NCBI GenBank assembly: GCA_900557455.1
Contig: USSM01000001.1
Coordinates: 1 to 64,000 of the forward strand
DNA length: 64,000 nt
Origin: an uncultured Collinsella sp.
GTDB lineage: Bacteria; Actinomycetota; Coriobacteriia; Coriobacteriales; Coriobacteriaceae
Reading direction: 5' to 3'
Below, piece after piece: positions 7,015 through 55,135 of the stretch. The notes under the pieces are model-generated. The model searched no databases and was not told where the DNA came from. It saw only the letters and a list, made by a program, of their open reading frames with translations. The translations under genes were made by a program, and so were the position numbers. The stretch's first letter is position 1, and the number at the start of each line of letters is the position of its first letter.

Positions 7015-7295
7015 GCTTCAGTGTCGAGTGGTCCAAGGCTGCGGCCAAGCAACTTGTCAAGATCCCGAAAAAGCAAAGGCTCATCGTCCTGTCCTGGGTC
7101 CAAGAACATCTTAATGGATGCGAAGACCCACGTCTCGCACCGAACGGAAAACAGCTTCAGGGCACCGACTCCGGTTGGCGCTGGCGCGTCGGGGTCTACC
7201 GTATCCTGGGGAGGATCGAGGATGGGAAGGCCGTCGTCGAGGTCGTGAGGGTCGGCCACCGCCAGGGCGTCTACAAAAACATGCCGCGGATATAG
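7011..7295 (+). CDS. RelE/ParE-family toxin
   Basis: A 94-residue basic protein with the RelE fold hallmarks: SVEWSKAAAKQLVKIPKKQR helix start, the GKQLQGTDSGWRWRVGVYRILG strand pair (KQLQG then WRWRVGVYRI), and a C-terminal VRVGHRQGVYKN. This matches RelE-type mRNA interferases, which cut mRNA in the ribosomal A site. The start overlaps the antitoxin stop. The pair lies inside the segment bracketed by the 230-bp direct repeats, so loss of the segment by recombination would remove the antitoxin supply, a plausible stabilising effect. The remaining 7296-7390 is very GC-rich and shows no gene. Confidence 0.85.
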   Translation: MSFSVEWSKAAAKQLVKIPKKQRLIVLSWVQEHLNGCEDPRLAPNGKQLQGTDSGWRWRVGVYRILGRIEDGKAVVEVVRVGHRQGVYKNMPRI

Positions 7296-33135: not shown

Positions 33136-33238
33136 CCCGCCCACCTCTCACACATATCATTCCATGCTCAAACATTCTCGCTTCGCTTCGCTCGCTGCGA
33201 AACTGCGCGTGGAACGATATGTGTGAGAGGTGGGCGGG
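33136..33238 (+). repeat. Family A nested palindrome, full copy 1
   Basis: Outer arms of 29 bases (33136-33164 and 33210-33238) are complementary except for one pair. They begin CCCGCCCACCTCTCACAC on the left. The core 33165-33209 begins TGCTCAAACATTCTCGC and ends GCGAAACTGCGCG, with short self-complementary TTCGCT repeats in the middle. Confidence 0.9.
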
Positions 33239-33396: not shown

Positions 33397-33500
33397 GCTG
33401 ACCGGCCCGACCCGCCTATATATCGTCCCACGCGCAGTTTCGCAGCGAAGCGAGAATGTTTGAGCATGGGATGATATATGGGCGGGTCGGGCCGGTCAGC
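33397..33500 (-). repeat. Family A nested palindrome, full copy 2 (inverted)
   Basis: Outer arms of 34 bases (33397-33430 and 33467-33500) are complementary with two G-U-compatible differences. The outer 20 bases begin GCTGACCGGCCCGACC and are unrelated to those of copy 1. The core 33431-33466, read on the minus strand, equals the core of copy 1 apart from a 9-base shorter centre. Confidence 0.9.
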
Positions 33501-54706: not shown

Positions 54707-54839
54707 GGTTTCCCGTGGGGCGGGCACTGATGAAGTTTCCTGCTCTACAGTCCTGCTCACGACGGAGGCCACATTAAGTGGCCTCCTGTTCGTGCGGAAC
54801 TCGCGATAAACTTCATCAGTGCCCGCCCCACGGGAAACC
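54707..54839 (+). repeat. Family B nested palindrome, copy 1
   Basis: Outer arms 54707-54738 and 54808-54839 are complementary at all 32 positions, beginning GGTTTCCCGTGGGGCGGGC. Inside is a conserved segment starting CCTGCTCTACAGTCCTGC, then a 9-bp inner stem GGAGGCCAC/GTGGCCTCC around ATTAA, then CGTGCGGAACTCGCGAT. Confidence 0.93.
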
Positions 54840-54963
54840 TGACAATAAGGGACAGGTTTATATTGGTAGGTATTATCTGGGGAAATGCTGCTGCATCTCT
54901 CTACAGATCCGAAATCTGACTGCTGAATAGACTGTCTAACTCAATGGCGAGCGGCACTAACTA

Positions 54964-55112
54964 GCCCTTTTGCTTGCGCCCGGGAGGGGCGCATATGAAG
55001 TTTATCGCGAGTTCCGCACGCAAAGGAAAGCACTTAATGTGCTTTCCGTCTTGCGCAGGACTGTAGAGCAGGAAACTTCATATGCGTCCCTCCCGGGCGC
55101 AAGCAAAAGGGC
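54964..55112 (-). repeat. Family B nested palindrome, copy 2 (inverted)
   Basis: Outer arms 54964-55003 and 55073-55112 (40 bases) match with one G-U-type difference, beginning GCCCTTTTGCTTGCGCCC. Read on the minus strand, the core equals copy 1 at CCTGCTCTACAGTCCTGC and CGTGCGGAACTCGCGAT. The inner stem is GGAAAGCAC/GTGCTTTCC, again with ATTAA. Confidence 0.93.
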
Positions 55113-55135
55113 GACCCCTGTCCGGAGTCGCCCTT
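55099..55135 (-). terminator. Terminator of pnp
   Basis: AAGGGCGAC (55107-55115) pairs with GTCGCCCTT (55127-55135). On the minus strand the stem leads into TTTTGCTTG. It overlaps the right arm of family B copy 2, so the two foldings exclude each other. Confidence 0.7.

Follow-up and report, generated by a model that had tools for sequence, protein, structure and literature searches.

The spacer between pnp and rnj in the window (the whole 64,000-nt stretch of Collinsella DNA analysed here) contains two nested palindromes, which are mutually inverted and 81% complementary over 113 nt. Each has outer arms enclosing 69 nt, with a conserved core inside them and a hairpin at the center. The features of the spacer are the following:

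54707..54738, + strand: left arm of element 1, pairing 32/32 with the right arm; other arm alleles stand here in other strains
54748..54754, + strand: conserved CAGTCCT of the core of element 1, invariant in 54 aligned copies
54764..54786, + strand: inner hairpin of element 1, GGAGGCCAC-ATTAA-GTGGCCTCC
54793..54801, + strand: conserved TGCGGAACT of the core of element 1, invariant or at least 90% conserved across 54 copies
54808..54839, + strand: right arm of element 1
54964..55003, - strand: right arm of element 2, 39/40 paired (98%)
55010..55018, - strand: conserved TGCGGAACT of element 2
55025..55047, - strand: inner hairpin of element 2, GGAAAGCAC/GTGCTTTCC
55057..55063, - strand: conserved CAGTCCT of element 2
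55073..55112, - strand: left arm of element 2 (in core orientation), 46 nt from the pnp stop
55107..55135, - strand: short hairpin after pnp followed by TTTT, with 12-bp arms (92%), overlapping the outer arm of element 2

Three adjacent double changes distinguish the inner stems of the two elements, and the 5-nt loop is identical. Both the self-complementary arms and these neighboring paired changes around a preserved ATTAA loop had been described in a first-pass annotation of the window; the arm pairing was the same when recomputed, and the double changes were seen again in both elements. The outer GCCCTTTTGC of the left arm of element 2 is the TTTT side of the hairpin after pnp, and a terminator scan flagged neither that hairpin nor the two elements. 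With up to three mismatches allowed, the window contains exactly two occurrences of each core string, where shuffles predict 0.09 and 0.00. RNA folding of the elements on both strands gave z values of -14 to -17, equalled by none of 200 shuffles. Nested palindromes of this size amounted to 105 distinct cases in 1.02 Mb of fetched DNA, which the searches had selected in favor of such sequences, against none in one block-shuffled copy.

The search for relatives of the spacer elements (hereafter family B) showed that they are widespread. A 91-nt piece of element 1, used as a DNA query against 58 genomes, matched 29, all within the 35 genomes of the same genus. The exact pattern recovered 77 stretches from the named genome collection, 76 of them titled Collinsella and one titled Coriobacteriia bacterium; no viral contig and no phage record matched. 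A covariance model (R1) had matches in 40 of 43 genomes of the genus and none in the other three. In two near-complete genomes 59 and 53 matches were obtained, which correspond to 33 and 27 distinct places after merging, since R1 matches both strands of one hairpin (one of the 33 places belongs to family A, below). Copy number within this one genus ranges from none to about 30.

Across the order, R1 matched 105 of 197 sampled genomes and 34 of 89 genera. Long stems alone can yield such matches, so individual loci were read in ten genomes belonging to other genera, 30 loci in all. The same core within unrelated arms was found in 29 of them, and a shorter core in the other (L260); L249 is L231 seen from the other strand, and L248 has a variant 3′ half. 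A model of the core only (R2), for which 15 candidates per genome were scored under strict filters in a phylum sample of 296 genomes, matched 17, that is, 15 in the order and two weakly outside it, with no match in the remaining genomes of the order in that sample. These results confirm that the palindromes form a large, dispersed, order-wide family with a conserved core and site-specific arms. A literature search, with most subscription papers outside its reach, returned no description of the family; at the Rfam gathering score the window gives only five tRNAs, and ten loci with elements give nothing. An order-wide repeat that occupies 33 and 27 places in the two near-complete genomes has no description in either source searched. 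A phage or plasmid element was considered and rejected. The sole record labelled as plasmid (NZ_OY725717.1, C. aerofaciens "plasmid 6", 899,693 bp; G008:C6) carries rpsL, fusA (EF-G), RNA polymerase and ribosomal-protein genes, and thus looks like a piece of chromosome deposited as a plasmid.

For the counts given below, elements were found by a palindrome scan combined with a core pattern, which copies with decayed arms escape. The strict pattern gave 216 elements, including one of family C, which was dropped for the gene-context count; a looser pattern also admitted some palindromes of family C and a few resembling family A, and its results are added for comparison. Some genomes are present under two names, and identical sequences were counted once. 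The alignments comprised 50 of 79 (A1) and 54 of 73 (A2) unique segments. Copies were grouped into sites by their flanking sequence.

Family A has the same nested design with a shorter core. Two relatives of it lie elsewhere in the window:

33136..33238, + strand: family A relative with the shorter core CTCAAACATTCTCGC...GCGAAACTGCGC in its own arms (core-model E 0.0062, weak)
33397..33500, - strand: second family A relative, inverted to the first (core-model E 0.11)

Family A was also observed at the L287 site. Nested palindromes with other cores, for instance CTCGGACATG...CTGCGGAA, occur at L066, L069, L083, L117, L306:3042-3168, L276:3042-3170 and L171:2120-2244, the first four being copies of one site with similar arms; these palindromes are perhaps distant relatives of the same design. 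Downstream of the element in L272 and L290 there is a free hairpin, GAAGGCCACATTAAGTGGCCTTC (with two changes in L290), followed by TTTG; the sequence of this hairpin recurs as the inner hairpin in one of the core variants. A MITE-like palindromic repeat with the conserved arms AGTTGCGGTGAAATAGGGACTG, or close variants, lies near some sites (L034, L038, L297, L328 and L330).

The 216 elements measure 86-165 bp in total, with arms of 15-49 bp. CAGTCCT shows no variation among 54 copies drawn from many genera, and TGCGGAACT shows almost none. The two strings face each other as a bulged helix, with the arms outside it and the inner hairpin inside it, both free in sequence; as one site shows, the inner hairpin is swapped independently of the arms. 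A further motif, GTT[GAT]AC, is enriched just outside the right arm, where it was observed in 33 of 215 elements of the looser set; at positions further out the count was 1 to 6. It is a possible second conserved internal loop.

In line with the proposals of the first-pass annotation, relatives were searched for the core, and copies were aligned and scored for covariation; the pairing covaries far beyond the controls. In 50 copies, 38 of 49 pairs have changed on both sides, and 93.9% of the alignment cells are paired. The covariation score reaches 0.649, compared with 0.180 in shuffles and no more than 0.183 when the structure is slid. Double changes are absent from all seven pairs of the core helix. 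Strong covariation can nevertheless arise in a repeat without proving RNA function. Template switching in RNA genes, as described in the accessible part of PMC8794818, leaves concerted compensatory changes, inverted loops and extended stems, and since it can make and keep paired stems, covariation alone does not decide the matter.

The placement of the family follows the boundaries of genes, as called by a codon-usage script that was trained on CDS annotated in two stretches of a single record. The elements are extragenic, 61 of 65 sites overlapping a predicted CDS by 20 nt or less; in one case (L246, G096) the element apparently lies inside a predicted reading frame. At 47 of the 65 sites the left arm, in core orientation, has a predicted CDS no more than 50 nt away; the right arm has one at two sites. 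Counting sites with one arm adjacent, 46 are left-only and one right-only (p = 7e-13; 40 to 1 with the looser pattern). In detail, 38 of the left-arm sites follow stop codons with the core in sense, and nine precede start codons with the core in antisense. The same orientation rule holds in other genera. Replication direction is probably not its cause, judged by local GC skew only: inverted pairs share one place, which makes the gene boundary the better rule.

Several boundaries carry the element in more than one species, among them the 3′ end of a nrdD-like gene and the 5′ ends of leuS-, valS- and thrB-like genes, and the latter three carry it in another genus as well (gene names were assigned by reading the gene ends). 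The retention of the same boundary between species or genera suggests a use of the element. A known riboswitch or T-box was considered at the leuS-, valS- and thrB-like sites and rejected, with no match there at the Rfam gathering score. The boundary orientation and the conserved bulge together point to a putative hairpin-reading activity.

These observations could be explained by a structured RNA that acts in cis. Transcribed from one strand, it would fold into a rod, whose bulged core would bind a factor that protects or regulates the neighboring mRNA; the arms would need only to pair, and would therefore drift in sequence while selection restores the pairing. The strong covariation, the conservation of the core across the order, the 38 sense sites close behind stop codons and the positions common to species or genera all agree with such an RNA. 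Against it, at the nine sites before starts the core is antisense, its orientation flips at some sites, three of 43 genomes of the genus have no match, Rfam gives none, and at one site 3 of 20 strains have recombinant, unpaired arms.

The mismatches within the arms bear on the same question, since in a sense RNA those that survive would be expected to be G-U by preference. Among 176 unique elements the arms are perfect in 100, and the mismatch events number 100, of which 26 are G-U, 50 A-C and 24 transversions (26, 43 and 21 with the looser pattern). By position, G-U, A-C and transversions are 12, 25 and 14 after stops, 3, 11 and 3 before starts, and 11, 14 and 7 elsewhere. The predominance of A-C over G-U is significant (p 0.008), with events that are not fully independent. 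There is thus no G-U excess on the core strand that would support selection on a core-strand RNA, and, G-U being the rarer class at the sense 3′ sites, no support for a sense mRNA element either. A-C mismatches become G-U when read on the strand opposite the core, so that an RNA of that strand would show a G-U excess, and this counts in favor of a structured RNA. All in all, an RNA of this kind is a serious rival that we consider unlikely. The double changes of the inner stem had originally been taken as a sign of selection on folded RNA or single-stranded DNA; the covariation of the pairing is upheld, and selection on RNA is not established by it.

Within single sites the arms turn over. Among 728 pairs of copies at the same site, 338 have close arms, 182 are intermediate and 208 have replaced arms (199 of 759 pairs with the looser pattern). 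In the close pairs, whose flanks have a mean identity of 92.9%, 160 two-sided against 257 one-sided changes were counted in 11,910 pair columns. The replaced pairs have a mean flank identity of 90.8% and were seen at 19 of the 30 sites compared. Arms that differ by strain at one site are still self-paired. For instance, the site of element 1 has four arm alleles between identical GGT...ACC ends. At the L274 site two of 20 strains carry family B, and in the other 18 family A takes its place in several arm alleles, all with the shared outer GTCCC/GGGAC; three of the 20 combine a left and a right arm that belong to two different alleles. Among related alleles, small paired substitutions and indels are found as well. 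Where alleles differ in blocks, both arms are affected, so that the concerted change is seen as a difference between alleles and not as an event.

No arm stretch longer than 13 nt is common to different sites when the innermost 8 nt are excluded; a 23-nt pair shared by L038 and L265 is a single site split by clustering. Of 1,939 arm matches, 1,885 have the core motif within 80 nt. The 54 without a nearby core are, among those listed, mostly family C, with one cut-off copy, one own element and one palindrome in L343 that resembles that of L306. In addition, 141 arm matches lay outside palindromes, those listed being copies that are cut off or unpaired. No donor for new arm sequence was found in the fetched DNA. 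Strains without the element have other sequence at the site, or are too distant to compare, and no clean empty site, target duplication or mobilising enzyme was found at the sites and in the genomes compared. Insertion into ready-made palindromes was rejected as an origin: no site was seen to have paired arms alone, and L149 and L088 look like deletions of existing elements. Near position 7284 on the reverse strand of L108, the inner loop of an element is split by unrelated DNA, and only the right half is recognisable.

The pattern of fixed ends and changing contents would also be produced by the exchange of hairpin cassettes, in which each site would be cut by an enzyme at its fixed outer ends and receive another hairpin of arms plus core; alleles would then differ by replacement of the whole hairpin and not by mutation. 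The replacement of the inside between constant ends at each site and the alternation of the two families at the L274 site agree with this mechanism, as does the spread of arm differences from near zero to complete replacement. Against it, no arm was met again at another site, which leaves the hairpins without a visible donor, neither a cognate enzyme nor a clean empty site was found, and related alleles differ by small paired changes too. Cassette exchange is likewise a serious rival, and one to which we give a low probability.

Two further explanations account for less. A bidirectional transcription terminator, or a block at the 3′ end of the mRNA, is consistent with the very stable hairpin and with most sites lying close behind stop codons. 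However, five or more T in the 8 nt past the right arm were found in 19 of 216 elements and on the other side in 6 of 216, the scan flagged neither spacer element, and the sites before start codons do not fit, which makes this very improbable. The pair in the spacer being a local inverted duplication without wider meaning, as its inverted relationship might imply and as the first-pass annotation would have accepted if relatives held no copies or copies with non-covarying arms, is refuted as a full account, since copies with different and covarying arms exist in other genomes and genera, and can practically be dismissed.

Inversions inside and around the elements introduce the reading preferred here. 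At 2 of 31 multi-copy sites of family B the core has opposite orientations between identical flanks, for instance in G001 versus G005 with nearly the same arms, and it is turned round in one family A strain (L373, L274 site); with the looser pattern it is inverted at 3 of 28 sites, one of them that of L373. These inversions rest partly on draft or metagenome-assembled genomes (G001 and G005 are of the latter kind), in which palindromes may be mis-assembled. Beyond the right arm, an inverted copy of the left flank with a score of at least 12 was found in 26 of 130 representatives and at 17 of 67 sites; among 377 mismatched flank pairs there was none. The looser pattern gave 15 of 64 sites. At three of the 17 sites the copy is only the arm continued past a 1-nt gap, leaving 14 of 67.

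The copied flank is coding at about nine of these 14 sites, with frames read by eye. In L026, 29/29 bp near the coding start of a thrB-like gene are copied inverted; L303 shows 18/18 at the end of a nrdD-like gene and L281 17/17 at a gene end. In L027 the copy is one base off its own CDS, and that base matches the CDS of L026, so the copies are not always in step. Because the coding sequence is the constrained side, the copy on the far side is probably the derived one. A base bias was also recorded: in the 5′ arm G exceeds C at 40 of 60 sites (p 0.013), and T exceeds A at 34 of 54 (p 0.08, not significant). In family A the G/C bias of the 5′ arm is reversed (14 elements, mostly of one site). 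The accessible part of PMC8794818 attributes to intrastrand switching a bias of G-C over C-G and of U-A over A-U, read from the 5′ side.

With a probability of about 0.4, the family consists of REP-like DNA hairpin repeats in which template switching around a conserved core rewrites the stems. A folded single strand or an extruded cruciform would disturb replication; the nascent strand could then fold back at the hairpin and copy its own 5′ side, so that one arm is rewritten from the other. Such copying might sometimes turn the core round and lay an inverted copy of the flank on the far side. The conserved core would be the site read by a putative hairpin-binding or transposing enzyme that spread the family, and the paired double changes would stem mainly from template switching and not from selection on RNA. 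The core inversions, the two orientations, the unpaired recombinants and the absence from three genomes of the genus speak for DNA, and an RNA role may still apply at particular sites.

In favor of template switching we count the replaced arms at single sites, the lack of arm stretches over 13 nt in common between sites, the inverted cores and flank copies, the missing G-U excess, the G-over-C bias of the 5′ arm and the variable copy number. Against it are counted the unexplained source of wholly new arm sequence, the A-C excess, which it does not predict, the reversed G/C bias of family A, the non-significant T over A, the unexplained rule of gene boundaries and their retention between species, the partial dependence of the inversions on draft assemblies, and the lack of an empty site, duplication or enzyme in the material compared. 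Among the roles suggested by the first-pass annotation, a mobile hairpin element fits best, the missing T-tract makes the bidirectional terminator less likely, and the structured small RNA stays at the low likelihood given above.

A more specific form of template switching is proposed tentatively. The family may represent a new class of bacterial repeat, a self-rewriting hairpin, whose bulged core would drive repeated copying from arm to arm, so that matched stems turn over within species and neighboring coding ends are captured inverted. At its boldest, the proposal would have the inverted copy, once captured, pair with the gene boundary and act as an address that keeps the element there or returns it.

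As to known systems, the family is read here as a REP-like hairpin repeat in which no gene of its own is seen. It is similar to REP/BIME sequences and their RAYTs in being dispersed, mostly extragenic, hairpin-forming, sometimes arranged in inverted pairs and present in tens per genome. REPs, in the accessible parts of PMC3733652, PMC3116915 and PMC2817692, are 20-40 bp long with a GTAG or CGTC end. The present elements are 86-165 bp long, with arms unique to each site and a conserved bulge in the middle; they share the extragenic location and have neither the short conserved-stem palindrome with a tetranucleotide end nor the flanking Y1 gene. None of six Coriobacteriia genus names sought occurs in the available text of PMC3733652. 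A RAYT or Y1 transposase as the mover was rejected, since at the loci and in the genomes compared the gene was seen neither beside the family nor co-distributed with it. Y1 matches occur in 15 of 20 genomes at 33 places, no family B palindrome lies beside the Y1 genes at 30 of these places (0/30, within 1.5 kb on either side), and G006, G033 and G034 have family matches but no Y1 match.

MITEs are also non-coding and dispersed, with terminal inverted repeats around a core. Their terminal inverted repeats are conserved between copies, whereas the arms of this family are not shared between sites. Intrinsic terminators resemble the family as stable hairpins near stop codons and differ from it in the T-tract, which it generally lacks, in its conserved internal bulge and in its occurrence in both orientations. 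Mobile-looking intergenic hairpins have been described as double-hairpin or repetitive hairpin elements in sponge, fungal and algal mitochondrial genomes (PMC2800124, in its accessible part), a likeness drawn by description only.

A parallel in process is with the template-switch hairpins of RNA genes, which, in what is accessible of PMC8794818, have perfect stems, several concerted changes, inverted loops, stem extension and a bias of G-C over C-G. In the family the concerted changes show as differences between alleles, and the G-C bias is seen in family B and reversed in family A. An inverted loop in an intact stem was found here at two of the 31 family B sites and in one family A strain, where assembly error may contribute. 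The family is unlike those hairpins in being a dispersed repeat with one order-wide core and turnover of whole arms, and the patterns above suggest that switching may have made its arms. Its many natural copies allow a test of whether perfect stems can be made and kept by template switching, a question open in RNA evolution.
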